In this document: positions 3,254 through 25,123 of the stretch, in pieces
Layout: each line of letters opens with the position of its first letter
Position numbering within the stretch: position 1 is the stretch's first letter
Virus record (IMG/VR): IMGVR_UViG_3300046009_007039
Span: 1 to 25,255 of that record
DNA length: 25,255 nt
Direction: 5' to 3' (one strand)
Source: a virus
The notes under the pieces: generated by a model
The model's database searches: none
What the model saw: the letters and a program-made list of their open reading frames with translations, nothing else
Told to the model about the DNA's origin: nothing
Program-made: the position numbers and the translations under genes

Positions 3254-3330
3254 TGGTGCCCATGGAGGGACTCGAACCCCCAACATCTAGGCTCTCGACC
3301 TAGCGACTCTACCAATTGGTCTACATGGGC
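3254..3330 (-). tRNA. tRNA-Leu(GAG), class I shape, C33
   Basis: Acceptor GCCCATG/CATGGGC, anticodon stem CTAGG/CCTAG, loop TCGAGAG (anticodon GAG), T-loop TTCGAGT, A73 and encoded CCA. The nearly universal U33 is C. The variable loop is 5 nt. It is a close relative of the CAG gene at 548-624. Confidence 0.8.
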
Positions 3331-3960: not shown

Positions 3961-3965
3961 CTCCA

Positions 3966-4036
3966 AATCCACGGGAGGAATCGAACCTCCATCTGGGCCT
4001 TGAACGACCCTGTCCTATCCATTAGACGACGCGAAA
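3966..4036 (-). tRNA. Degenerate tRNA-like gene, Glu-type body
   Basis: The D-arm GTCTAATGGATAGGAC and T-arm GGAGG-TTCGATT-CCTCC are canonical. The acceptor pairs TTTCGCG with CGTGGAT with one mismatch. The anticodon arm is one nucleotide short: a 5-bp stem GGGTC/GGCCC closes a 6-nt loop GTTCAA. The likely ancestral anticodon is TTC (Glu) or TCA. CCA is not encoded. Probably decaying or a non-decoding tRNA. Confidence 0.5.
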
Positions 4037-4189
4037 CAAGAGACTTTGACTAACCGTTGTCCAGACGGTCGATATGGGTCTCAAGGAAGTGAACGACTAG
4101 GTGGACCAGGGATCCTTGGGAGAATCCCACCCCAACCGTTCAAGATAACAATGGACTTACCGGCTCAGCGCCGCGCCTTGAAAAAACAG

Positions 4190-4974: not shown

Positions 4975-5050
4975 TGGTACCATGTAACGGGATCGCACCG
5001 TTATCTTCGGGATTTCAAGCCGATGTGAGCCCTAGCTTCACCAACATGGT
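4975..5050 (-). tRNA. tRNA-Phe(GAA) with non-canonical T-loop
   Basis: Acceptor ACCATGT/ACATGGT, A73, encoded CCA, D-stem GTGA/TCAC and anticodon arm TCGGC-TTGAAAT-CCCGA (GAA). C31-C39 is a mismatch. The T-arm AACGG-TGCGATC-CCGTT has perfect stems but a TGCGATC loop lacking U55. Confidence 0.78.
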
Positions 5051-5051
5051 A

Positions 5052-5127
5052 TGGTCCTCCCGCAGGGATTTGAACCCCGATAAACGGATTATCGGTCCGC
5101 TGCTCTACCAGGTTGAGCTACGAGAGG
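5052..5127 (-). tRNA. tRNA-Ile(GAT)
   Basis: Acceptor CCTCTCG/CGGGAGG, A73, encoded CCA, anticodon arm GCGGA-CCGATAA-TCCGT and T-loop TTCAAAT. First gene after the promoter at 5141-5168. Confidence 0.93.
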
Positions 5128-6595: not shown

Positions 6596-6618
6596 CAAAT
6601 AATTTCACGCAAAAGAAA

Positions 6619-6643
6619 AGGGCCCCAGCTTTCGCCAGGGCCC
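6619..6643 (-). terminator. Intrinsic terminator after SPFH operon
   Basis: AGGGCCCTGGC-GAAA-GCTGGGGCCCT, about 11 bp with a GNRA loop, followed by TTTTCTTTT on the minus strand. Confidence 0.9.
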
Positions 6644-6667
6644 TCGCTTTTAGATCGTGGAGATCGA

Positions 6668-7570
6668 CTACCGGTTTCTAGCGTAGGAGTCGATCAGCGT
6701 AGGACTGGCGCCGATGACGCAGACCGTAGCATTCCGCGGGCAGAGACCTTTGGACTTCTCGACCTCCTTCAAAGCCAGGAGTTCAGGGTTTCGACGGATG
6801 GAGTCGCCCAGGGCGTCGTTGGCTTTGGCGTCGTAGACGGCCTGAGCTTCACGCTTCTTGCCTTCGGCGATGGTAGCCGCGAGTTCAGCGTCCTTCTTGC
6901 GAGCGTCGGTCTGGGCCCTCAGAGCACCGGTGATCGACTGAACGATGTCCTCAGGCAGAGCCGGCGGAGAAGCCCAGAGAAGATCTCCATCGAAGATGAT
7001 CCCTTCTTTCTCGAACTTCCTGGTGACCACCGCGGTGACTCGTTTGGCGAGATCGCGGCCGCCGTCAGTGTAGAGCTCTTGTGTGGAGTACTCGACACCG
7101 GTGAAGTTCAGAGTGTTCTGGATTTCACGAGCGACAGGACCGTAGACGACATCATCGAGGACGTAGCCGTCTTCACCACCCTTGCCGGTGATCGAACCAC
7201 GGTACTTGCGGACGATGTCGTCTGCCTTGGAGGGATCGATGCGGATGTTGGCGGTCAGACAGGCGGTGACCAGGACCTTGTCTTCGTTGATGAAACGGAA
7301 GCACGGCGGATTGACGCGCTCACCGTTCACCTTGGCGCCGTTCCAGGTGTAGGTCTGCATCGTGGTCGGGAACTTCACGATGTAGCGATAGGAGAACGGA
7401 TGGTTGAAGTAACGACCCGTGGTGATCTCGGTCTCCTGGACGCCGGCTTGATCACCGATTTCCTTGACTTCGACCGCAGCTTCGAAAGCCTTGATCGGTT
7501 GACCACAGGCGGCCAGACTGAGGGACATGACCGCGAAAACCGCGGCGATTCCGATTCGTTTCAAATTCAT
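6668..7570 (-). CDS. SPFH/Band-7 domain lipoprotein
   Basis: 300 residues. The N-terminus has a lysine/arginine start, a hydrophobic segment and a lipobox LAAC with Cys22, so it should be lipid-anchored on the periplasmic side. Residues about 35-210 show the Band-7 pattern (VKFPTTMQTYTW, TACLTANIRIDP, VARE, AKRVTAVVTRKFEKEGI). Residues 215-265 form an Ala/Lys/Glu coiled coil, as in prohibitin and HflK/C relatives. Such proteins organise membrane proteases or protect the cell envelope. Its operon partners are a two-TM protein and a coiled-coil protein. Phage SPFH proteins are known, but their role is not settled; superinfection or envelope protection is inference. Confidence 0.82.
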   Translation of the reverse strand: MNLKRIGIAAVFAVMSLSLAACGQPIKAFEAAVEVKEIGDQAGVQETEITTGRYFNHPFSYRYIVKFPTTMQTYTWNGAKVNGERVNPPCFRFINEDKVLVTACLTANIRIDPSKADDIVRKYRGSITGKGGEDGYVLDDVVYGPVAREIQNTLNFTGVEYSTQELYTDGGRDLAKRVTAVVTRKFEKEGIIFDGDLLWASPPALPEDIVQSITGALRAQTDARKKDAELAATIAEGKKREAQAVYDAKANDALGDSIRRNPELLALKEVEKSKGLCPRNATVCVIGASPTLIDSYARNR

Positions 7571-7901: not shown

Positions 7902-8231
7902 CTATTTCAGTTTGGAGCGAGCTCGGGCGAGTTGCGCCTCGAGTTCTTGGATTTCCGTGGAAAGCTTATTGCGATCTTCAGGCGTCAGGATGTCGTCCTT
8001 GGTAAGAACGTTGGCCTCCTGAATATCGAAGCCGTTGTAGGTCCAGCGGCCGCTTTGGGCGTCAAGGGCCGACCGTTCGTCCCGGCATTGTTCGCTGCCG
8101 AAAATTCCGGATTTGCCCATGACGTACTGATCGGCAGCGGAGAAGGTATCGAACACGCGATCGAATAGCATCGGTCCTCTGCCTTCCGTGAAATCGGAAT
8201 TCTTGAGAATGATAAAGACTCGGTCGAACAT
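7902..8231 (-). CDS. Coiled-coil hypothetical protein
   Basis: 109 residues from MFDRVFIILKNSDF, chosen for AAGGAG upstream; the longer frame would start inside the promoter. The C-terminal 30 residues form a heptad-rich helix (LSTEIQELEAQLARARSKL). A single Cys occurs near the middle. First gene of the SPFH operon. Unknown function. Confidence 0.72.
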   Translation of the reverse strand: MFDRVFIILKNSDFTEGRGPMLFDRVFDTFSAADQYVMGKSGIFGSEQCRDERSALDAQSGRWTYNGFDIQEANVLTKDDILTPEDRNKLSTEIQELEAQLARARSKLK

Positions 8232-8260
8232 ATCGTGTTTCTCCTTCCGTTGACTATGGA

Positions 8261-8288
8261 ATCCTATCACAGTCTGCGTCAATGTAAA
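8261..8288 (-). promoter_or_regulatory. Early-type phage promoter
   Basis: TTTACA (8283-8288), a 16-nt spacer ending TGTGA and TAGGAT (8261-8266). Drives the SPFH operon. Confidence 0.8.
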
Positions 8289-8321
8289 CATTGTCTGTGA
8301 CTTTTTTCACCGGATCCGGCG

Positions 8322-8349
8322 CAAAGAAAAAGGGCCATAATCGGCCCTT
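8322..8349 (-). terminator. Intrinsic terminator of the large RNA unit
   Basis: AAGGGCC-GATTAT-GGCCCTT followed by TTTCTTT on the minus strand. It closes the roughly 1-kb non-coding unit that begins at promoter 9407-9434. Confidence 0.9.
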
Positions 8350-9400
8350 CGTCTTAAATGTAAAGCCCTGAGACTACGGGCTTTGATGATCTAGCTCCGG
8401 TCATTACCCATTGTGGTGCTACCCACCTGGTTCTACCGACGTCCACCGAGATCCTTTTACGGTATCCTGGTACTAAATCAGAGCCGTTCATTTTTGACAA
8501 CTGGTGTGAACAGCACCTGGTATGGTTTCCCACACCGTATGATCGCCTACTCAGCCCTTCTTTTCCCACCTACCTTGCGAGCAGTTCGGTAGCCGCTAAG
8601 CCACCTATGAGAACCTCTAGACTAACCGACTTTAGCTTGCGGCCTCAGTACGGACTCCCTTACCATTAAGGCGGGAGCATTTGGCTCCTTACGACGATCA
8701 CTGGCCCAGACTTTTGCGTTTTTCATGAAGCAGGAATTGAACCTACACCATCTGATTAGAATTCAGACGCTCTACCACTGAGCTATTCGCAACCCACCAA
8801 GACGTGCTGGACCAGTTGCTCCGTTAGATTTTTGTCCAACAGAATACAACACGCCTCATGCCTTTCCCCTCGCGAGGTACTCGACCGAATCTTCGGACCG
8901 CGGTTCCTCCGGCTCTTTCGAGACGGTATCACCGTAACCCTCCGTTCTGATTACCCGCCCTTGCCTGCGAAAGCTTGGACTATGGTAACCCCAAATCGTT
9001 TGTCGTCAGTCTTAGAGAGGGTGCATCGGATATCTAGTTTGCGACTAGAAGACCAATCCCCGTGTTTTCACGAGAACTGACTTTTCTCCGTCTCTCTTGG
9101 GACGTATCTCCAGTGGTAAGCTGAAGCAGGACCTCTCGGTCCTCGACCCGATCGGCGTGATTTACCCTCCTTGGGGGAGGTCGGGATACCTATGGGAGGC
9201 CATCCCTGTCAGTCCTATTGCTAGGACCTATTGTGCCACACGCGGCGTATATCAATTTGCTTTTTCTATCAAAAACCGGTTACGTTCTCCGGCGACAGCC
9301 TAAACTGTCCGTGCTATTGCTTTTTCTATGCGCCTTAAGCGCGAGGAATTAGCTGTGCATTTTGATCTCTCCGATTCGTAGATGTTTAATCATCATCAGA
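8350..9400 (-). ncRNA. Large structured non-coding RNA (GOLLD/ROOL-like candidate) with embedded tRNA
   Basis: About 1,050 nt with its own promoter (9407-9434) and terminator (8322-8349) and no coupled or family-like reading frame. On the minus strand I see hairpins capped by GNRA tetraloops: GTCCTA-GCAA-TAGGAC (9212-9227), AGGACC-GAGA-GGTCCT (9128-9143), CCTC-GCGA-GGGG (8866-8877) and GGTGTGG-GAAA-CCATACC (8519-8536). The 5' end (9392-9398) is complementary over 7 nt to a site near the 3' end (8384-8390), so the molecule can close on itself. tRNA-Arg lies inside at 8722-8792. GOLLD and ROOL RNAs are large ornate RNAs found beside or around tRNAs in phages. Membership is inference; a new class is equally possible. 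Confidence 0.6.
8722..8792 (-). tRNA. tRNA-Arg(TCT)
   Basis: Anticodon arm TCTGA-ATTCTAA-TCAGA (TCT, Arg AGA), standard D-arm GCTC/GAGC and T-loop TTCAATT. The acceptor TTGCGAA/TTCATGA is weak, with one mismatch and two wobbles. No encoded CCA. It lies inside the large RNA transcript. Confidence 0.87.
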
Positions 9401-9406
9401 GATATT

Positions 9407-9434
9407 ATCTTATCACAACGGACTGCTATGTAAA
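9407..9434 (-). promoter_or_regulatory. Early-type phage promoter of the large RNA
   Basis: TTTACA (9429-9434), a 16-nt spacer ending TGTGA and TAAGAT (9407-9412). The predicted start near 9400 coincides with the 5' strand of the RNA's closing helix. Confidence 0.8.
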
Positions 9435-9446
9435 CAGCCTTTGTGA

Positions 9447-10046
9447 TTATTTTTTTCGTGAAAGGATCATTTCACCACGGTCATAAGCCTGGACAATCCG
9501 ATCATGGTACTCATTGGCCTTCTCGAAAGAGGCCCAGTGGCCTAGATGCGCCCAGTACTTCTCGAACTGTCCATTAACGGCCGCGGTCCTCATTTCTGTT
9601 CCAGAGAAGCCCATGGCTCTACCGGTTCCGGTGGTGTAGGAGATATTGACCTGCTTCACATTTAGAACCGAGGCCTCGGGAATATTGCCATTAAGGATTG
9701 CGGCGCGAAAACGCTCAGCATCTCGCTCTCGATCGGCGCCGTAGATCAGCGTTAGACGAGACGGACGTTCACGGTCGGCGGCGAACAGAGAAGCTGCTGC
9801 GATCTTGATCGTCTCGCCCATCGAAGAAACGGGTACGAACGTAGGAATATAGCGAATTCCAGCCATATAGAATTGGCGGCGTACAATTTCCAATCTCTCT
9901 TCGAAAGTGAAGACAGACGGCTTGTTGGAGATACCGACGATCTTAACACCTTCATGCAGATCCATCGCTCGACCGATGTCAAAAGCGTGACCCATATGAG
10001 AGTGTGGATAAAAACCAACCATCGGCGCGATAGTGATGTCGATCAT
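9447..10046 (-). CDS. HIGH-motif nucleotidyltransferase (NMNAT/cytidylyltransferase-like)
   Basis: 199 residues from the ATG that overlaps the upstream stop (ATGA). GFYPHSHMGH at residues 11-20 gives the HxGH signature (17-20) of the nucleotidylyltransferase superfamily, and SGTEMR at 148-153 is the matching ISSTxxR-type motif. Length fits NMN adenylyltransferases and relatives. Last gene of a three-gene set with a ligase-fold protein and a possible Pol-beta-type transferase. The role could be NAD metabolism or an RNA/nucleotide modification; the sequence does not decide. Confidence 0.75.
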   Translation of the reverse strand: MIDITIAPMVGFYPHSHMGHAFDIGRAMDLHEGVKIVGISNKPSVFTFEERLEIVRRQFYMAGIRYIPTFVPVSSMGETIKIAAASLFAADRERPSRLTLIYGADRERDAERFRAAILNGNIPEASVLNVKQVNISYTTGTGRAMGFSGTEMRTAAVNGQFEKYWAHLGHWASFEKANEYHDRIVQAYDRGEMILSRKK

Positions 10047-10921
10047 TTGAGACGAACTCCTAGACGTTGACAAACGTTCTTGATCTGTTCTTCATTATCT
10101 CCCTTAAGGGAGCGGCAATGTTCTGCGAATTTTTCTGCGACGCGTCGATTAAATTCTCGGCCATGATAAGCGACGAGGTTATCGGTTAGAGCGTTGCAAA
10201 TTCCATAGACAGAACTTACGTGGTAGACTCCAGCACCGCGACCAAACATCTTAGCAGCGATCTGGATTGGCGTAAGGTACTGAAAATCACCGAATTTCGT
10301 GTCTCTCGGTCTTAGACCATGAGTGATTGAGAACTTCCAATCGTAAACAGTAGCGACCGCGTTCAGTAGAATCTTGTGGTGAAGACCCTTGAATCCATGC
10401 TGTAGATCAGTCCAATCGGACGAATGGAGGAAGGCCTCGTATTCTGCCGGTGCATTGATATGGTAGGATACCGCCTCGAAGTCGATTTGGTAATAGCCAC
10501 TCAGGATGTCGCCATCATCATGCGCCTTCCAAATAGTGGAGATCTCATTGCCATGACTGTTGACACCTACCAGAACACCAAGGGCGTACGACCTGCCGAC
10601 AGTGGCTTTGATGAATTCCCTGAACGACTCTTTGTGATCCTTGTTGAACATCGTATCGACGTCGCCGACAGATTTAACATGGTCCAAATAGTACGGCGGC
10701 GGCTTGAACAGATAGCATGAAGAGCCAGAGAACACCGACTCGGTATAGAGAGCCGCATGGTTTTCGCCAAACAGCCATTCACCACTGTCGAGATAAAACT
10801 CTGCGGCTACGTGCGCCAAGGTGGCCTTGATGATCAATGGAAGAGTGATCAGTGCGATCGAGTCGATCTTAAACCGATTGACGTCATGTCCTTCCCACGT
10901 GCGTTTGACTTCAGAGTCCAC
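10043..10921 (-). CDS. Putative Pol-beta-fold nucleotidyltransferase
   Basis: 292 residues with a GTG start overlapping the upstream gene, GGAG 7 nt upstream. A GDVD motif (86-89) with a later acidic strand YQIDFE (Asp147) resembles the G-[GS]...DxD...D metal site of Pol-beta-type transferases. The C-terminal half is helical (FKGLHHKILLNA, AEKFAEHCRSL). It is coupled to a ligase-fold gene upstream and a HIGH-type transferase downstream, which supports an RNA or nucleotide transfer role. The match is motif-level only. Confidence 0.5.
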   Translation of the reverse strand: MDSEVKRTWEGHDVNRFKIDSIALITLPLIIKATLAHVAAEFYLDSGEWLFGENHAALYTESVFSGSSCYLFKPPPYYLDHVKSVGDVDTMFNKDHKESFREFIKATVGRSYALGVLVGVNSHGNEISTIWKAHDDGDILSGYYQIDFEAVSYHINAPAEYEAFLHSSDWTDLQHGFKGLHHKILLNAVATVYDWKFSITHGLRPRDTKFGDFQYLTPIQIAAKMFGRGAGVYHVSSVYGICNALTDNLVAYHGREFNRRVAEKFAEHCRSLKGDNEEQIKNVCQRLGVRLK

Positions 10922-11705
10922 GACGTTTCTCCATATAGTTGCGGAAGAATGGGGTGGTGAGCTTCAGCATCGGCATAGTCGGATCCTCAAAGTGAAAGAT
11001 ATGACCCTCCGCTTCTGGTCCCCACTTGGGATTGTAGAGATTATTGTCGAGAAGAAAATGAAGCAACGTAATTTCCAGCGATCTCATATTCCGTTCGTGG
11101 TCACCAGGAAGATCAGTGACCTTCGGAGTGAACCGATCATCGATCGGAATTTCAATATTCGTCGCTACCAGATCATGATCGAACTGAACCTGATGTCCAC
11201 TGATGAAAACATGGTTCTTCGTGATCTCAGGATCAGTCAGCTGAGTGTGGATCAGGAAGGTCGATACGTGACCAATTCGGTCATTAGAATACGGAACGGC
11301 GTTGAAGACCATACTGTCTGGATAGAATTGCTTGACAACCGCACGGGACAAAAGTTCACCGCGAACAACGCCAGTCTTTGGCATGTAAAAGTGTAGTGGT
11401 TCATATTCCGCGAGCGCAGCATGTGTCTGCGCGAAAGCCGCTTGAATAATGGGATTGTAGGATCGACCAGTTTCCTTTTGGCGGCGCTCAGCCCGCTCGA
11501 AATAGTCGTGCGCAGTTCTCATCCGTTCGGTGCTCGATGAAGAACTCTGAGTGTAAAACCCTTCTTCATCTCGACCAATGAGGAAACACATGCCATCGGT
11601 CTTTTCAGTGACCGCCTTGATCTTCAGAGTTCTGTCGCGGGCCATGTTAGCCCATTCGACTTGACTCAAGTCTTTGACGTGTCTGATGGATTTTCTGATG
11701 GACAA
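10911..11705 (-). CDS. Ligase-superfamily protein (RNA ligase-like)
   Basis: 264 residues. EKTDG at 34-38 is motif I of covalent nucleotidyltransferases, with Lys35 as the expected AMP-carrying residue. RGEL (115-118) fits motif III, EGHIF (233-237) motif IV and LKL with Lys248 motif V. The protein is short with no OB-fold domain, as in phage RNA ligases. Coupled to two other nucleotidyltransferases, it may seal host-damaged tRNAs; a large tRNA set in the same genome fits that. Confidence 0.72.
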   Translation of the reverse strand: MSIRKSIRHVKDLSQVEWANMARDRTLKIKAVTEKTDGMCFLIGRDEEGFYTQSSSSSTERMRTAHDYFERAERRQKETGRSYNPIIQAAFAQTHAALAEYEPLHFYMPKTGVVRGELLSRAVVKQFYPDSMVFNAVPYSNDRIGHVSTFLIHTQLTDPEITKNHVFISGHQVQFDHDLVATNIEIPIDDRFTPKVTDLPGDHERNMRSLEITLLHFLLDNNLYNPKWGPEAEGHIFHFEDPTMPMLKLTTPFFRNYMEKRRGL

Positions 11706-18343: not shown

Positions 18344-19432
18344 TCAGCCAAAGAAGGCGGCTAGACCGGCAGACTCTTCAGTGACCGGCTTAGTCTTAGC
18401 GATTTTTACCGGCTTTTCTTTGACAGGCGGCAAAGGACCTTGCCAGTGCGGATATGACGCACGAGCCAAGTGAACTGAACGAGGACGCTCCATGTGTTCG
18501 AAGTCGAGTTCGCCCTTGTCGTTCTTGAGATAATCGGTCCACTTCATCCAGGAGACGTCGTTATCCGAACCGATCTTAAGCTGGTCGATGAATGCTGTGC
18601 GTACAGCGTCTCGCTCCGCCCATGATCCGTAGAAAGGAGTTCCTTTGTAGTATCCGGTTTTTGGAAGTTTGCGGCTCTCGTTCTCGATCGGCATCGGCTC
18701 GAAGATACGGACCTTGGAGCCCGGGCGGTAAAGTCCGCGAGCCTGTTCCATGTATCTGGATGCCAAGTCGCGAGCAGCCGATAGAGGCTCTGGTTGTCGA
18801 CACAAATGGTGTCGAATGTCGATATTACCGAAGTATAGGAAGATTCGGTCCCACTTATCCCTCGGACCGATTTCTTCTACGAGTTTGTCGAGGCCGATCT
18901 CTAGTGCGCCGTGAAGGGTCTTGAATGGGATTGAATGGACCTGCACCGATCGCGCGTATTGTGCGATCGCGTGACTGTCGCCGACTACCAATGATCGAGC
19001 CGGAGTGTCAAGGAACCTGACGAATTTGGTACGATCAGGAAGACTATTGGCCATGTCCCAGTCGATAGTGTTCAGGATCGGGTCATGATCTTTTGATTTC
19101 GTCAAGCGATCATTGATCAACTTAGCGTAATCCGGCATCGGAATGCCGAGAGAGGTCACCGTTTTATTGGTGTGAAACAGTTTGACAAGACCAGCAGGAT
19201 CAGCAAGACCGGAAAGGCCGCCAAACAGATTCAGGCCACCGCCAAAGTCATTTCCATGGTAAATGAAGACCTCATCAAAATCGTCAAGGTCTTGCTTGCC
19301 ACCATAGTTGACTGTGGCGTCATATCCCATGTGCTTAAGCTGGTCAGCATAGATTTCACCTTGAGCCGATCTATGCGAGTACGGTGACGGCGAGATCGGC
19401 GTGATCGGGCTCGTCAGTAGAACTTTAGTCAT
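18344..19432 (-). CDS. SGNH-hydrolase-like protein with clamp-binding-like tail
   Basis: 362 residues; ATG overlaps the upstream stop (TGATG). VVGDSHAIAQYA (near residue 155) resembles SGNH block I (GDSH), YFGNIDIRHH (near residue 200) block III, and SVHLA near residue 330 may hold the block V histidine. SGNH enzymes cleave or form esters. A flexible Lys/Pro linker leads to a C-terminal GLAAFFG, similar to the SLADFF tail of the next gene and to T4-type gp45-binding peptides. The hydrolase call rests on motifs only. Confidence 0.55.
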   Translation of the reverse strand: MTKVLLTSPITPISPSPYSHRSAQGEIYADQLKHMGYDATVNYGGKQDLDDFDEVFIYHGNDFGGGLNLFGGLSGLADPAGLVKLFHTNKTVTSLGIPMPDYAKLINDRLTKSKDHDPILNTIDWDMANSLPDRTKFVRFLDTPARSLVVGDSHAIAQYARSVQVHSIPFKTLHGALEIGLDKLVEEIGPRDKWDRIFLYFGNIDIRHHLCRQPEPLSAARDLASRYMEQARGLYRPGSKVRIFEPMPIENESRKLPKTGYYKGTPFYGSWAERDAVRTAFIDQLKIGSDNDVSWMKWTDYLKNDKGELDFEHMERPRSVHLARASYPHWQGPLPPVKEKPVKIAKTKPVTEESAGLAAFFG

Positions 19433-20697
19433 CAAAAGAAGTCCGCTAGAGATTTAGCTGGAGATTCACCGATCTCCTTAGAAATCGGAGCTGCGGCCCT
19501 CTTGGCCGCTAGATTACGGTCGTTCTTTAGTCGATTGAACACTGAATACTGACAGCACGAGATTTCAATCCCGAAAGTTGTGAACCGACCCAATTCAGAA
19601 GCTTCATTGAGGTGTCTCAACGAATAACCATCGACAATCCCGAAGAATTGTTCCTGGTCTTCCTTGATTGCATTAATGAGCTTCATAGTCGTTTTCTGGT
19701 TCATTGGAAGACCAGGCCATAGACGACTCAAAGTATCGGTGGCACCAGGACCGGCTACCACGTAGCCATCGTTTTCGTCAAGGTTACCGTGCGTAAGGTC
19801 GGGATAAGTCGACTGCAGAGTCTTGAAGGCCTCGTCGTATTCGCGATCGATAAGGGCCGCAGAACCGACACCGGGCATCCTAGAAAGATTTGACGAAAAG
19901 TGATAGCCGTAATAGGCTCCAATACCACGACGAGCAGTCAGGAAATCGTAGGATTGTTCCATGGTCGGTTTCTGCGAATAGAACTCATTGAAGCCCTGAT
20001 GGTGAATTCCATTGATGTCGTCGCCAGACTCCGTCATGGACACGACCCAGTGGATCATGTCCGACGCTTTGAACTTCCTTTCGGCGTCAGAACCCTGGTC
20101 GAGGGGACCGGGACGAGCTCGAGAGTGCTGACGGGCGGCTGTTTGGAGAGACGTTCGAAGTTCGGTCGTCCCCCAAATTTGCTGTTTGTCGCGGACAGCC
20201 TTTTCGACATTTTCACAGATGGCTCTGTAGTAGTCAGGGTCGCGGCGAGTCTCAGCGACGTTGACAAATGGCCAAGGTGTCTTTTCAAGGTACGGAAGAT
20301 CTGCATGTCCTGATACTATCTCAAGTGTCTTAGATGGGCCATAAAATTTTACGATCGCGGAATTTACGATCTTGTCTTCAAAGTTCACGGCTGGATTGAA
20401 GTAGAGGTTCTTATTGAGCCAAATGACTTCGTCGTGAAATGAACGATTCGGGTGGAAATACGGAACCGGCTTTCCGTCGACTACGAACCCACGACCGAAT
20501 TCGGGGCGATGTTCGTATTCCTGTTGTGCGTACTCGTCGAAAGTCTCAGACGACTTAGCGATCCGGACGGACCATTCACGCTTATTGAACTCACGCATGA
20601 AGAGACCGAGCTCATCACGGACTGACGTGTCAGCCATCGCAAGGAGCTCGGAGTCAGATTTGGCCATAACTTCAGCGGTGTTCATGGCAACTACCAT
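19432..20697 (-). CDS. Putative base-modification protein (aGPT-pyrophosphorylase/HMUDK-helical-like)
   Basis: 421 residues, ATG overlapping the upstream stop (CAATGG). The C-terminal half has FLTARRGIGAYYGYHFSSNL, then DENDGYVVAGPGATDTLSRLWPG. This GxG...GPGA order is typical of the helix-hairpin-helix-derived family described as alpha-glutamyl/putrescinyl thymine pyrophosphorylase or the helical partner of 5-hmdU kinase in hypermodifying phages. The N-terminal 150 residues contain Trp/His-rich segments. It ends in SLADFF, a clamp-binding-like tail. Family assignment is by memory of motifs. Confidence 0.55.
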   Translation of the reverse strand: MVVAMNTAEVMAKSDSELLAMADTSVRDELGLFMREFNKREWSVRIAKSSETFDEYAQQEYEHRPEFGRGFVVDGKPVPYFHPNRSFHDEVIWLNKNLYFNPAVNFEDKIVNSAIVKFYGPSKTLEIVSGHADLPYLEKTPWPFVNVAETRRDPDYYRAICENVEKAVRDKQQIWGTTELRTSLQTAARQHSRARPGPLDQGSDAERKFKASDMIHWVVSMTESGDDINGIHHQGFNEFYSQKPTMEQSYDFLTARRGIGAYYGYHFSSNLSRMPGVGSAALIDREYDEAFKTLQSTYPDLTHGNLDENDGYVVAGPGATDTLSRLWPGLPMNQKTTMKLINAIKEDQEQFFGIVDGYSLRHLNEASELGRFTTFGIEISCCQYSVFNRLKNDRNLAAKRAAAPISKEIGESPAKSLADFF

Positions 20698-21065
20698 TGA
20701 GTGTGTCTGACGTTCTCTTTGTTGGTGAGATCATGGTCTAGATGGACCACAGTGATCCAAGGACACCGTTCGCGAATGACTTCGACTTGGATTGGGTCGT
20801 CCTCAAAGTGGATCTTGACATAGTCTGGACCAAAGCGATTCAGGACTTCGGCCTTGTGGGCACCCGAACTTTCGCGGGTCTTCTGGTCGTACGGAATTGG
20901 ATTGAAGAATACGGTGTTGTGGATGCCAACAGCATCCAGCATTTCGATGGTCTCAGGAATTTCATCGACCGAACGGCCGGTAATAATGATGTCCTCAGGA
21001 CCAGGCCTAACTCCCATCAGGCCTGGTTTCATGAAAACGACACCGTCAATGTCGAAGGAGTTCAT
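20691..21065 (-). CDS. HAD-superfamily phosphatase-like protein
   Basis: 124 residues, ATGA overlap with the inositol phosphate synthase gene. DIDGVV (5-10) is HAD motif I with Asp5 and Asp7, ITGRS (27-31, Thr29) motif II, AHK (Lys71) motif III and HFEDDP (86-91) motif IV. There is a small or no cap domain. Its tight coupling to inositol-1-phosphate synthase suggests it may dephosphorylate the product to free inositol, but HAD enzymes have broad substrates. Confidence 0.75.
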   Translation of the reverse strand: MNSFDIDGVVFMKPGLMGVRPGPEDIIITGRSVDEIPETIEMLDAVGIHNTVFFNPIPYDQKTRESSGAHKAEVLNRFGPDYVKIHFEDDPIQVEVIRERCPWITVVHLDHDLTNKENVRHTQW

Positions 21066-22231
21066 CGAACGACATTGAACTCCTTTACCATTTCAGACAG
21101 TTCGCGGCGAGCTAGTTGTCCGCACTCTGCATGCGCGTCTTGGATCATCATTTGTGCCGGCGGCGTCTTCTGGGTCGCAGCTGAAGGACCTCTCAACGAA
21201 CCGACAAGACCCAATTCTCGCGCAACCTGGAGATACCGGATGGCATCAATAACCACACCGGCCGAGTTTGGTGAATCCTGCACCGACAGACGAGCGTCGA
21301 AGATGATCGGAGCACCACCGAAGCCTCGAGCCTCGATGCGGAAGTTCGCGACCTTGTTGTCACCGTGGAAGGCGATGTAGGACGAAGGACCGGCGTAGAT
21401 GCCGTTCTTCGGGACCGCGATACCTCTCAGATCATTCTGCGACCGGATGACGTTTTCCTTCGAAATCTTCTTCGAAGCAAGACGCGATTGGTCCATCATG
21501 TTAAGGAAGTCAGTGTTGCCACCGTGGTTGGTCTGACAGTGGAAATCGACTTGCATTCCACGGTTGAAGAGGAGTTCCTGTAGGGCCTGTGACATGATTG
21601 AGGCGCCAAGTTGCGACCTCATATCGTCACCGATGGCCGGAATGCCAGCTTCGATCAGTCGCTTTTCCCAGTACGGGTCCGACACGATGAAGACTGGAAT
21701 GCAGTTGACGAATGGGACCTTCGCCTCGATGCACGCTTCGACGTAGAAGCGAGTCGCAGTCTCAGAGCCGACCGGCAGATAGTTGAGGAGGACATCAATC
21801 TTGTTCTCCTTCAGATCACGGATGATGTCTTCCTTGGTCGGTTCCGGATCTTTGGTGACTCTGAAGCTCTCGTCTTCCGGCATATTCAACATGTGGGCAG
21901 CCACGCCATCATACAAGGCACCGCGCTTGACCTTGACTGGGCCGTCGGTGACGGCATTCAGAAGATCGACCCGATCCGCATCGTAATCGGCGAGAAGATC
22001 AATCGCGCAGTTAGGCTTGGAATAGATGGCTTGACCAAGAGGACGTCCGACCTTACGGGTGTCTACGTCGTAGGCTAGCGCGAAAGTGATGTGTTTTGGC
22101 TTGTAGCCGCCGATGTCTGGGAAGTCTAGACCGTCTGTGCGGCCAGTAGCTGTATAGAGAGCTACGCCCTCGACCAGGGACTTGGCGCAGTTTCCCACCC
22201 CAATAATGGCCACACGAATTTGCTTTGTCAT
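21062..22231 (-). CDS. ino1: myo-inositol-1-phosphate synthase
   Basis: 389 residues. VAIIGVGNCAKSLVEGV is the Rossmann NAD-binding start. LNYLPVGSETATRFYVEACI, AIGDDMRSQLGASI, TNHGGNTDFLNMM and the long DSPNSAGVVIDAIRYLQVARELG run match actinobacterial-type Ino1 throughout. The enzyme converts glucose 6-phosphate to inositol 1-phosphate using NAD. Very rare in a phage. It is coupled to a HAD phosphatase and lies between nucleotide-modifying genes. The 5' leader (22232-22384) contains hairpins and a distant GATAAATA. Confidence 0.94.
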   Translation of the reverse strand: MTKQIRVAIIGVGNCAKSLVEGVALYTATGRTDGLDFPDIGGYKPKHITFALAYDVDTRKVGRPLGQAIYSKPNCAIDLLADYDADRVDLLNAVTDGPVKVKRGALYDGVAAHMLNMPEDESFRVTKDPEPTKEDIIRDLKENKIDVLLNYLPVGSETATRFYVEACIEAKVPFVNCIPVFIVSDPYWEKRLIEAGIPAIGDDMRSQLGASIMSQALQELLFNRGMQVDFHCQTNHGGNTDFLNMMDQSRLASKKISKENVIRSQNDLRGIAVPKNGIYAGPSSYIAFHGDNKVANFRIEARGFGGAPIIFDARLSVQDSPNSAGVVIDAIRYLQVARELGLVGSLRGPSAATQKTPPAQMMIQDAHAECGQLARRELSEMVKEFNVVR

Positions 22232-22384
22232 GAGATTTCCTTTTTGCTATCTCAGTTTTACGTCTATGAAACCACAATTGGTTTCGTTTGGTCCAGATGA
22301 CTGGGGTAGGACGGACGCCTTAAGCAGGCGACGTGCTATTTATCATTGCCGAACATTGAAAAACGTTGCGGCCGTCAATCTTTT
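22232..22384 (-). promoter_or_regulatory. Structured leader of ino1
   Basis: The only sizeable gap in the modification operon. It contains GAAACCA-ATTG-TGGTTTC (22266-22283 area), a CGCC...GGCG hairpin near 22315 and a late-type GATAAATA box (about 22338-22345). No T-run follows the hairpins. This suggests separate late expression or post-transcriptional control of the inositol genes. Confidence 0.4.
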
Positions 22385-22915
22385 TCAATAAAATTCTTCA
22401 TTCAGGATCAAAGTTTCAATCCCGGCTTCATTCAGAAGCACCTGAGAGTTCTGCCAGGACTCTTTCCACCTATCTGGTAGAGGACCGTGCCAATTACAGA
22501 CAACCTTGCGTGTACCGACCTGAATTACGCCTTTGGCACATTCGCGGCAGATCGGAAGACCATGGACATACAACGTAGAACCGTCAAGACTGATGCCGCT
22601 GTGACACGCGTTGAAGATGGCATTCATCTCAGCGTGAACCATGAATTTGTACTTTGTCTCGCGGTCATCAAGAGACGCAGCGTCGTCTCGAATTCCGCGA
22701 GGAAAGCCGTTCCACCCTGCCGAAAGCATGATGTTCTTGTCGTTCACGAAGATCGCGCCGATCTTCGTCGACGGATCTTTAGACCATTGTGAATAGGTCT
22801 CTGCAAGAGCGGCAAATCGCAGATCCCACTTGGTCACTAACGAAGGCGGTGTATAAACTGGTCCAGACCACTCGACGCCGTAGGTCGAATCAAAAGGCTT
22901 TTCAGGATGACACAT
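22385..22915 (-). CDS. dCMP deaminase
   Basis: 176 residues from the ATG that overlaps the upstream stop (TAATG), GGAG 9 nt upstream. HAEMNAI (residues 94-100) and GLPICREC (119-126, Cys123 and Cys126) form the zinc site of cytidine/dCMP deaminases, and the NGFPRG substrate loop is present. It makes dUMP from dCMP. In T4-type pathways this balances dTMP supply against hydroxymethyl-dCMP made by the neighbouring enzyme. Confidence 0.94.
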   Translation of the reverse strand: MCHPEKPFDSTYGVEWSGPVYTPPSLVTKWDLRFAALAETYSQWSKDPSTKIGAIFVNDKNIMLSAGWNGFPRGIRDDAASLDDRETKYKFMVHAEMNAIFNACHSGISLDGSTLYVHGLPICRECAKGVIQVGTRKVVCNWHGPLPDRWKESWQNSQVLLNEAGIETLILNEEFY

Positions 22916-23637
22916 TACGCCCACTCCGCACGAGCGCCCATTCGGTCTTTGTAGACATCTTTAGTCACATCATGTTCGCCGAATTCAGCGAAGTAGTCAA
23001 CTAGATAGAAATGACGTTCATAGACGTGCAAAGAACCGACCTGCCAGGTGATATCACCGGGTTCCAGACCGAGGTCTACAGACAGCATCTCCAAAACGGT
23101 TTGTTGCCAGGCCAAATCATTTTTGAATCCGAAAATGGCGTCATTTGACCGCATCTGAACGACTGCTTCGAGTTTGTTGTTTCGAATCAGGTACTGCACA
23201 GTATTGGTGCACATGAAATCTGAACGGCCGTTACGATCGTAATCCTGCCACATGGTAGGACGTGTGTAGATCATTTCTGCACGACGACTGTTGGGATTGT
23301 TCGTGAGTTCGATGAGGACGTTGTCGTATTGGAATCCATTCTCTTCAGAATAGATGCACCATCCGTAATTCGAATTGATAAACCCATCTTTGTCAGCGAC
23401 CTGAGTCCAGATAGCCGGAGGACCACCTGGAATGGTGTTGACATTCAACGATTGAGACTCATACCAGAGAAGTTCTCTAGCAATGTAGTCTTCATTGGGT
23501 GTGCCAAAAATCGCTACATCGTCAGCAGTAAATGACGCACCAACAACTTCAAGGACCTTGCCACCATTCTTGTCAATGACGAAATCCTCGTTGAGAAGAC
23601 GATCGGCGAACGCTCTACGGATATCAAAAACTCTCAT
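22915..23637 (-). CDS. 42: dCMP hydroxymethylase (thymidylate-synthase family, T4 gp42-like)
   Basis: 240 residues, near the 246 of T4 gp42. Catalytic Cys143 lies in FMCTNTVQYLIRNNKL, the QMRSNDAIFGFKNDLAW segment (161-177) matches the RSxDxxLG region, and HVYERH near residue 204 matches the C-terminal His-Tyr motif. Counting from Arg163 (TS Arg166), the residue at the TS Asn177 position is Asp174. In T4 gp42 the equivalent Asp selects dCMP over dUMP. So it should make 5-hydroxymethyl-dCMP. Confidence 0.85.
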   Translation of the reverse strand: MRVFDIRRAFADRLLNEDFVIDKNGGKVLEVVGASFTADDVAIFGTPNEDYIARELLWYESQSLNVNTIPGGPPAIWTQVADKDGFINSNYGWCIYSEENGFQYDNVLIELTNNPNSRRAEMIYTRPTMWQDYDRNGRSDFMCTNTVQYLIRNNKLEAVVQMRSNDAIFGFKNDLAWQQTVLEMLSVDLGLEPGDITWQVGSLHVYERHFYLVDYFAEFGEHDVTKDVYKDRMGARAEWA

Positions 23638-23643
23638 GTTGGT

Positions 23644-24054
23644 CTACTTCGCTACGTTGAAGATGTCTCTCGTTTCGTCTTGACCATCGATTTTGTATCG
23701 AAGCCATGCAACGGCGAACGAGCAGTAATTGATCATGTCCTTGTAGGTGTCCTCAAGGCTTTCGAAGTTTGGTGCAGCATCACCAGCTTGAGTCGCTTCT
23801 AGAAGCGACTGCGCGCGATAAGCTTTACCCTGGATGGTGTCGTGAAGAGAATCGATCCCGCGTCGATAATGCATCGCCTGACGCACGTTCGATTTGGGGT
23901 TCTGATAGTCTTTGCTCTTGCGAAGTTGAAGATCGATGCACTCGCGGAGGACTTTGACCGACTCTTTTTCAACGACACGGTCCACTGCGCCTGAGCCACC
24001 TTCTGCAGATTTTGGTTGAAAATGTTCGAGCGGCGGATATACTGAAGTTGTCAT
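23644..24054 (-). CDS. DUF1599/Nmad1-like protein
   Basis: 136 residues, ATGA overlap with the nuclease-like gene. The pattern CIDLQLRKSKDYQNP...IQGKAYRAQSLLEA...FESLEDTYKDMINYCSFAVAWLR fits the DUF1599 family, named nucleotide modification associated domain 1. It is all-helical. Placed directly upstream of dCMP hydroxymethylase, it supports a DNA-base modification operon. Biochemical activity unknown. Confidence 0.7.
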   Translation of the reverse strand: MTTSVYPPLEHFQPKSAEGGSGAVDRVVEKESVKVLRECIDLQLRKSKDYQNPKSNVRQAMHYRRGIDSLHDTIQGKAYRAQSLLEATQAGDAAPNFESLEDTYKDMINYCSFAVAWLRYKIDGQDETRDIFNVAK

Positions 24055-24470
24055 TTTCTAATCCAGGTTGAAGGGGACAAATCTCGCATAGTCTTAGCAA
24101 GTTCAGAGTCTGTAAAAGACCACAATAAACTCGTATCTAATACACTATAACACCTATGGAGGCGTTCATACAACTTAATTTTTTTGTAGGAGGATTTTTC
24201 TACGACTTCCCATACTTTGATCTCATCGGTTGGCCATGGCAGCTCTACAATGAAGAACCTATCAACTCCGTCGATCTTCCTCCATTGGCTCTCTTCAAGA
24301 AGAAAGCCGTTGTACTTGAAGAACCTCAGGAAGGTCTTGACCTCGATGGTCTCGCCGTCGGCCATGATGTCCTTTTGATCGTCAAAGCGATCCTCAGAGA
24401 GTTCGACGTTCGTATAGCCTTCCTTCTCTCTGAGGTAGCGGGCAACTAGATTCTCACCAATGAAACCCAA
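24051..24470 (-). CDS. Restriction-endonuclease-fold-like protein, start uncertain
   Basis: About 139 residues from a TTG at 24470; the frame stays open to a GTG at 24656, but that extension overlaps another gene and is Ser-rich. GFIGENLVARYLREKEGY, then QKDIMADGETIEVKTFLRF, gives the E...D...ExK order of PD-(D/E)XK nucleases, close to YraN/NERD-like proteins. The rest is alpha/beta with conserved-looking Trp residues. No clear RBS for TTG. A frameshift fusion with the 24496-24690 gene is possible. Confidence 0.58.
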   Translation of the reverse strand: MGFIGENLVARYLREKEGYTNVELSEDRFDDQKDIMADGETIEVKTFLRFFKYNGFLLEESQWRKIDGVDRFFIVELPWPTDEIKVWEVVEKSSYKKIKLYERLHRCYSVLDTSLLWSFTDSELAKTMRDLSPSTWIRK

Positions 24471-24495
24471 TTCGCATTTGTCGTCCCAAGGAGCG

Positions 24496-24690
24496 CTACA
24501 AGACAAATTCCGAGTCGGCGATTGGGATTTTGATGACTTCGAAGAACCAGCGTTTGGCAATTTTAGACCATCTGACGAGATAGATTCGATTGCCGCCCTT
24601 AAACTTGAAACCGATGGACGCGGGATCGTCGATGCGGTAGAAATTGAATCCGTCACGGAGTCTCTCTTTATCAGACGTCCAATGGAACAC
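24496..24690 (-). CDS. Small hypothetical protein, GTG start
   Basis: 64 residues. The GTG start has AGGAG 8 nt upstream and overlaps the MazG-like gene by 20 nt. Basic and aromatic-rich beta pattern (FKGGNRIYLVRWSKIAKRWFFEVIKI). It precedes the nuclease-like frame by 25 nt. It may be a separate partner or the broken N-terminus of that protein. Confidence 0.65.
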   Translation of the reverse strand: MFHWTSDKERLRDGFNFYRIDDPASIGFKFKGGNRIYLVRWSKIAKRWFFEVIKIPIADSEFVL

Positions 24691-25123
24691 TGAATGCTCT
24701 CCTGAGTCGGGTCGGAACTAGATCGTCGTGGTTAGGAGCGACCCAACCTTCGGGTTTGATCAGGTCTGGCAGGCCAAGAGGATTAGGGCGTCCTTCCTTG
24801 ATGCCGACGTTCTTAGCCATATTGGCAAGATGAACTCTATGCCATGCCTCTTGAGAATCGACACCGTAGATGTCCAGTGTTCCGATCGCTACGACACAAA
24901 GGTCGATCATAGCATCGATGAAATCAGCAGGATCCGTGGCTTCTTTAGCCTCATCGAGTTCCTCTTGAAGAAAGTTCTCACGAAAGCGACGTAGAGCAGC
25001 TAGTTTTGTGTCGTCGAACTTCTCGACTGCCTGATGTACCTTGTAGTACGCGTGCATTTCCGAGATGTCGTCGACCCAATCATAACCAGACTCGAAATCT
25101 ACGTAATCAGAATCGGTGTTCAT
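24671..25123 (-). CDS. MazG-like NTP pyrophosphohydrolase
   Basis: 150 residues. ENFLQEELDEAKEATDPADFIDAMIDLCVVAIGTLDIYG gives the ExxE...D metal site of the all-alpha NTP pyrophosphatase (MazG/phosphoribosyl-ATP pyrophosphohydrolase-like) fold, followed by AWHRVHLANMAK. AAGGA RBS overlaps the stop of the deformylase gene. In T4 another member of this superfamily (gp56) clears dCTP; an equivalent role feeding dCMP to the hydroxymethylase would fit, as inference. Confidence 0.8.
   Translation of the reverse strand: MNTDSDYVDFESGYDWVDDISEMHAYYKVHQAVEKFDDTKLAALRRFRENFLQEELDEAKEATDPADFIDAMIDLCVVAIGTLDIYGVDSQEAWHRVHLANMAKNVGIKEGRPNPLGLPDLIKPEGWVAPNHDDLVPTRLRRAFSVPLDV

Follow-up and report, generated by a model that had tools for sequence, protein, structure and literature searches.

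On the minus strand of a phage-derived virus record, a stretch of about one kilobase almost certainly encodes a GOLLD RNA, as judged by homology, and the tRNA-like domain in the linker of this RNA is very likely an attached, non-functional tRNA mimic. Because its acceptor is cut, the CCA is missing and the anticodon arm is kept, the domain is probably not released but displayed inside the RNA cage to a factor that reads the anticodon.

GOLLD identity and transcription unit

The DNA analysed here (hereafter the window, the whole stretch of 25,255 bases of the virus record) contains clamp-loader and sliding-clamp genes and a large tRNA array. Sixteen tRNA genes were called by ARAGORN in addition to the one inside the GOLLD RNA; phage or prophage origin and, often, a tRNA neighbourhood are features of GOLLD. 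The Rfam model RF02032 was matched from end to end (model positions 1-416 of 416) on the minus strand at 8365-8857, with 161.1 bits against a gathering cut-off of 150 and an E value of 1e-43, and the conserved 3'-domain helices can form, as cmscan flagged few non-standard pairs. When 8200-9600 was scanned, ROOL and all other Rfam families except GOLLD and tRNA gave zero matches up to E=1, by which they were ruled out. RF02032 covers the 3' domain only and the 5' half is absent from Rfam, which leaves some room for ROOL or a new large-RNA family in place of GOLLD; given the full-length match above the cut-off, the probability of either is negligible.

An earlier note on this DNA had named GOLLD and ROOL as candidates and proposed running both models; GOLLD was borne out and ROOL was not. 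Its statement that the region holds no credible gene agrees with the open reading frames on the RNA strand, none of which is credible and the longest of which has 71 aa. Together with the RNA covariation in the 5' half, this led to the rejection of a protein-coding reading.

The limits of the transcript are predictions. The early promoter proposed in the earlier note was recovered as TTTACA-16-TAAGAT with an extended -10 TG at 9407-9434(-), and a longer version of the motif, TGTTTACAT..TGTGATARGAT, is present in two copies in the window (9407-9436 and 8261-8290), where 0.12 would be expected by chance. The gene right 3' of the GOLLD terminator has its own promoter copy of the GOLLD type, at 8261-8290(-). 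The transcription unit ends at about 8322 by the predicted terminator; the hairpin and T-tract claimed for it do exist, but terminator-like sites are no commoner in the window (4 found) than in shuffled sequence (3.5 expected). Both promoter and terminator are considered plausible.

The segment from about 9252 to 8858 in the 5' domain is homologous to phiCbK-type phages (E ~1e-7 to 1e-9 in nhmmer searches with the 5' domain) and to an IMG/VR contig, L120 (E 1e-14). The 5' half folds better than its shuffles (z -2.66), and RNAalifold predicted 98 pairs in a 4-sequence alignment, 39 of them with both partners changed in one or more sequences; a separate count gave 40. This number of double-sided changes (40) was reached by none of 500 shuffles, and slid controls gave 7-13. 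The covariation score was 0.546, compared with at most 0.172 in slid controls, on only four sequences including two close relatives. The 5' half thus passed the covariation test suggested in the earlier note (40 of 98 pairs, four homologues), which supports a structured 5' half, though not each individual helix. Searching IMG/VR for further homologues of this 5' subclass yielded zero new GOLLD RNAs among the loci checked.

All four hairpins with GNRA tetraloops listed in the same note were located (GCAA at 8634-8644, GAGA at 9130-9141, GCGA at 8868-8877 and GAAA at 8521-8534). The 7-nt complementarity that it had described between the two ends (9388-9394 and 8385-8391) is also present, including in the minimum-energy fold, but the pairing is probably not real because the Rfam alignment assigns its 3' strand to a conserved GOLLD helix.

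Table 1. Coordinates of the GOLLD locus in the window
Feature	Position	Strand	Basis or remark
Predicted GOLLD transcript, ~1,078 nt	8322..9399	-	Promoter and terminator predictions; Rfam and homologue matches inside; identical in contig L008
Predicted promoter, extended -10 type	9407..9436	-	Motif common to next gene's promoter; prediction only
Predicted intrinsic terminator, hairpin then T-tract	8329..8350	-	Prediction only
GOLLD 5' domain (corresponds by analogy to the cap domain of the solved cage)	8858..9399	-	nhmmer, covariation, fold z -2.66
GOLLD conserved 3' domain (RF02032)	8365..8857	-	161.1 bits, full model
tRNA-Arg(TCT)-like domain in GOLLD linker	8722..8792	-	ARAGORN; Rfam 61.1 bits
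AUUCUAA anticodon loop of the linker domain; retains U33 and A37	8756..8762	-	
Conserved A-rich/GCAAAAGTC element 3' of linker	8708..8721	-	Found whether or not the GOLLD has a linker tRNA

Another IMG/VR contig (L008, 48.9 kb) is 99.84% identical to the window over 10,170 bases, contains an identical GOLLD and represents the same virus. All 16 differences fall within 11000-11500, inside the ORF 10911-11705, and the remainder of the shared 10.2 kb is identical; local recombination or diversification may account for them. Elsewhere in the window, the stretch 19432-25123 groups genes for myo-inositol-1-phosphate synthase, deoxycytidylate deaminase, thymidylate synthase, DUF1599 and PRA-PH with one whose match to the 5-hmdU kinase helical domain fell slightly short of the Pfam cut-off. 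This group looks like a hypermodified-thymine pathway, possibly with an inositol-derived group. A sub-threshold match to BjrC68, a Bradyrhizobiaceae sRNA (31.8 bits against a cut-off of 39), was observed at 6610-6692(-), at the end of the gene 6668-7570.

Truncated acceptor stem of the linker tRNA-like domain

The linker lies between the first helix of the 3' domain and the GCAAAAGUCU element. The tRNA-Arg reported in the earlier note is indeed present there, called by both ARAGORN and Rfam, but it is not an ordinary tRNA. Its acceptor strands, UUGCGAA/UUCAUGA, form three perfect pairs followed by a C-A mismatch and weak pairs including two G-U, in place of the 7-bp stem of a functional tRNA-Arg, and no CCA is encoded (tail A/AAAC), whereas most other tRNAs of the window encode it. 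The anticodon loop AUUCUAA is canonical in having U33 and a purine at 37. This linker tRNA is less degraded than most of its relatives, six of the seven acceptor positions being pairable when G-U is allowed. Pairing of the acceptor 5' strand UUUGCG with a downstream CGCAAA was considered as well; it holds for the window, phiCbK, Phosso and Cp1R7A, and is not general because it is missing in MD18/MAL1 and in most of the IMG/VR set. In the tRNA array, odd members were observed at 3965-4037, 4978-5050, 3254-3330 and 5052-5127 : one has an unclear anticodon, one was detected by Rfam only, and the other two, tRNA-Leu(GAG) and tRNA-Ile(GAT), have C at position 33.

By distant BLAST and model searches, GOLLD RNAs were identified in the Caulobacter phages phiCbK, Magneto, Karma, BL57 and RBC57, Sinorhizobium phage Phosso, Mesorhizobium phage Cp1R7A-A1, Phaeobacter phage MD18, DSS3_MAL1, Ruegeria phage V10 and Roseobacter phage DSS3P8, and a match just under the cut-off was found in Erythrobacter phage L02. 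No GOLLD annotation was present in the record stretches examined (phiCbK group and Ruegeria, Phaeobacter, Mesorhizobium, Sinorhizobium and Erythrobacter phages). Two scans of IMG/VR with motifs of the relatives, followed by model confirmation, detected GOLLD in 116 of 146 and then in at least 21 of 34 records, giving a set of at least 137 further GOLLD-positive viral contigs plus the known phages. Phage tmRNAs were observed at a distance of ~1 kb or less from GOLLD in L028 and L040-L047; those of the Caulobacter phages are permuted, and those of Phaeobacter and Ruegeria phages are known from annotation or prediction.

Comparison of the linkers revealed a common truncation. Among the matches listed, uninterrupted acceptor pairing beside the T arm spans 4-5 bp in 55 of 73 distinct linker cloverleaves and at least 7 bp in six, and a CCA-like tail is found in at most one of the 73 distinct linker tRNAs. 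Stand-alone tRNAs from the same loci (1,064 distinct, among the matches listed) have a full 7-bp stem in 916 cases and an encoded CCA in 1,033 (97%). The same pattern was obtained in a scan that placed no demand on the linker, which returned 29 cloverleaves, three of them with 7 bp or more, among the matches listed. When an alignment of 41 non-redundant linkers built without structure was folded by RNAalifold, the resulting cloverleaf had exactly four acceptor pairs. Those from 7:66 to 4:69 are formed in 100, 100, 98 and 90% of the sequences, with covariation, and 3:70 to 1:72 in 46, 44 and 56%, which places a sharp edge after the fourth pair. The covariation score of the linker was 0.793, compared with at most 0.173 in slid controls.

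The good tRNA score in ARAGORN and Rfam (61.1 bits), and the fact that no other tRNA-Arg was called in the window, would be compatible with a dual use in which a functional tRNA-Arg is excised from the GOLLD transcript. Such excision would split the GOLLD RNA in two, the acceptor is broken or shortened and the CCA missing in nearly all relatives beside intact neighbouring tRNAs, and a pseudo-tRNA inside the GOLLD of Mycobacterium aubagnense gave no separate Northern product (PMC6582537). Dual use is therefore regarded as very improbable.

Retention of the anticodon arm and change of identity

The anticodon arm is the part of the linker tRNA that is best retained. U33 is present in 67 and a purine at position 37 in 69 of the 73 distinct linker tRNAs among the matches listed, and the Asn/Lys linker loops are canonical (CUGUUAA, CUUUUAA, CUCUUAA) in 39 of 42, again among the matches listed. 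The three commonest identities, Lys, Asn and Arg, comprise 50 of the 73 (among the matches listed), and the anticodons span at least 12 isotypes in addition to stop-reading ones. The latter (CTA, TCA, TTA) were observed in six linker mimics, those of L064, L131, L084, L113, L138 and L192. The enrichment of Lys and Asn (Fisher test) partly reflects shared descent, as the linkers fall into 54 clusters at 90% identity and 13 at 70%; relatedness among the sequences deprives its p-value of meaning, and it is not used as proof. Loss of U33 (to G or A) was found in the Gly forms of phiCbK and BL57 and in MD18, MAL1 and EliS-L02, and the D- and T-loop motifs are gone from a few linkers. A sub-clade formed by L123, L135, L144, L187 and L188 combines shortened D loops and altered T-loop sequences (CUUCAAA, CGUCAAA) with a retained Asn anticodon arm.

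Hairpins resembling an anticodon arm also occur in linkers that lack a cloverleaf. Among the matches listed, 12 of 18 such linkers contain a hairpin with a 5-bp stem and a 7-nt loop in which position 33 is U and position 37 a purine, where 0.6 would be expected and at most five were reached in 2,000 shuffles; that of Ruegeria phage V10 reads UUUGA-UUUAGGA-UCAAA. The test was devised after examples had been seen, some of the 18 linkers are related, and a few hits occupy the place of a D or T arm.

On a tree of the GOLLD core (101 rows, linker excluded), the anticodon has changed 36 times or more across 71 labelled tips, and the cloverleaf has been gained or lost 10 times or more. L159 and L163 have cores that are 99.8% identical and linkers that are 63% identical, with Asn and Lys identity, respectively; between L122 and L141 identity is 96.5% in the core and 66% in the linker. 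The cores of phiCbK and Magneto are likewise 99.8% identical, and these two phages differ mainly in the anticodon loop (Gly versus Lys). Pairs of the L159/L163 and phiCbK/Magneto types therefore indicate that cassette exchange and in-place change both occur.

Possible roles of the linker and relation to known cages

It has already been published that GOLLD RNAs form cages and that some of their linkers contain tRNAs, and the solved structure of the env-38 GOLLD is a 14-mer cage that encloses the linker (PMC12286853). The window GOLLD resembles env-38 in its full-model 3' domain, variable 5' domain, linker position, phage origin and nearby tRNA genes. It differs in that env-38 has a disordered loop of 42 nt as its linker, where the window linker holds a 71-nt tRNA-like domain; moreover, the env-38 cage was seen in a solved structure, whereas that of the window GOLLD is predicted from this homologue. 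GOLLDs of the phiCbK type (Magneto, Karma, BL57) are closer, with 76% identity over 268 nt around the linker, a homologous 5' domain and a linker tRNA whose acceptor stem is also broken. Their linkers read Gly or Lys, not Arg, U33 is lost in the Gly forms, and a phage tmRNA adjoins. The GOLLD of M. aubagnense shares an internal tRNA-like gene that is not expressed separately and lies within a tRNA cluster; it is a single case on a bacterial chromosome, and the available text of the report does not give acceptor truncation as a general rule. ROOL, also a large RNA of phages, likewise assembles into a cage whose linker lies in the interior, but it is unrelated in sequence and fold and has no Rfam match in the window.

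By analogy with the 14-mer, the window RNA would fold into a closed cage from its 5' cap domain and 3' ring domain, with the tRNA-like domain (broken acceptor, ~4 bp in relatives, no CCA) on an inward linker. Since the acceptor stem is broken and the CCA missing, this domain could hardly be processed, charged or used in translation, and it would stay as an attached handle. The partner is most likely an anticodon reader, because what has been kept is the tRNA body and above all the canonical anticodon arm. Multiple copies of the mimic may then serve as exchangeable bait, by which a host factor that reads tRNAs, such as a defence-system anticodon nuclease, would be captured or occupied in the cage. 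The bait reading is favoured by the fact that anticodon nucleases are known to attack the three identities most frequent in linkers, Lys, Asn and Arg. Colicin E5 cuts Asn tRNA and colicin D cuts Arg tRNA. PrrC cleaves tRNA-Lys(UUU), and host defences cut the anticodon loops of tRNAs, which stand-alone phage tRNAs are thought to evade (PMC10264068). A caged bait needs the cage to open or to assemble around its target, and the loss of U33 in several phages together with the loss of D- and T-loops counts against one single anticodon reader.

The combination of GOLLD cage, attached mimic and bait role is the best explanation as a whole, held with somewhat less than even confidence. That the linker mimic baits an anticodon-reading host factor is the leading reading of its role, tentative and unproven. 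Slightly more doubtful is the general form of this proposal, in which the GOLLD linkers of many phages would be a dedicated class of tRNA mimics, swapped as cassettes among GOLLDs of almost the same sequence and used as interior bait, and the cage an anti-defence sponge. Such a class would comprise a cloverleaf with a 4-bp acceptor and no CCA and, in some lineages, little beyond a hairpin like an anticodon arm.

Structural filler and a ribosome handle also fit the linker facts, alongside bait. If tRNA genes of the array were inserted into a tolerant linker and decayed there, the cloverleaf would be a neutral spacer or a compact filler of the cage; the location of GOLLDs within tRNA arrays, the repeated gain and loss of the cloverleaf on the tree, the tightly clustered linker lengths and the several GOLLDs without a cloverleaf are consistent with this. 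Decay of this kind accords poorly with a uniform truncation that has a sharp 4-bp edge and compensatory changes within it, with anticodon loops that stay canonical despite great divergence, and with the recurrence of anticodon-like hairpins in linkers without a cloverleaf, and the spacer is thus thought unlikely. A similarly low probability was assigned to docking of the tRNA-like domain, or of a bare anticodon arm, in the decoding site, by which GOLLD might store, stall or recruit ribosomes. Binding of ribosomes to GOLLD in pull-downs has been reported (cited in PMC12286853), the anticodon arm is kept even without a T arm, and a 4-bp acceptor would avoid the peptidyl-transferase centre. The spread of anticodons over at least 12 isotypes and stop-reading forms, the absence of U33 from several known phages and the orientation of the linker towards a closed interior in the solved cage argue against such a handle.

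What appears new is the anatomy of the linker tRNA, its occurrence having been known before. In the papers covered by a literature search there was no description of the 4-bp acceptor rule, anticodon-arm retention or cassette exchange, and no mention of GOLLD together with 'acceptor stem'. GOLLDs have gone unannotated as such in the published phage records examined, from the phiCbK group to Erythrobacter phages, and some of these phages are laboratory-grown. These findings suggest selection on the linker, across a large group of phages, for a tRNA mimic whose acceptor is cut at a fixed point. The persistence of the anticodon arm while identity changes fast provides a testable clue to the role of GOLLD cages, solved in 2025. 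If the bait reading is true, the GOLLD cage would be an anti-defence sponge.
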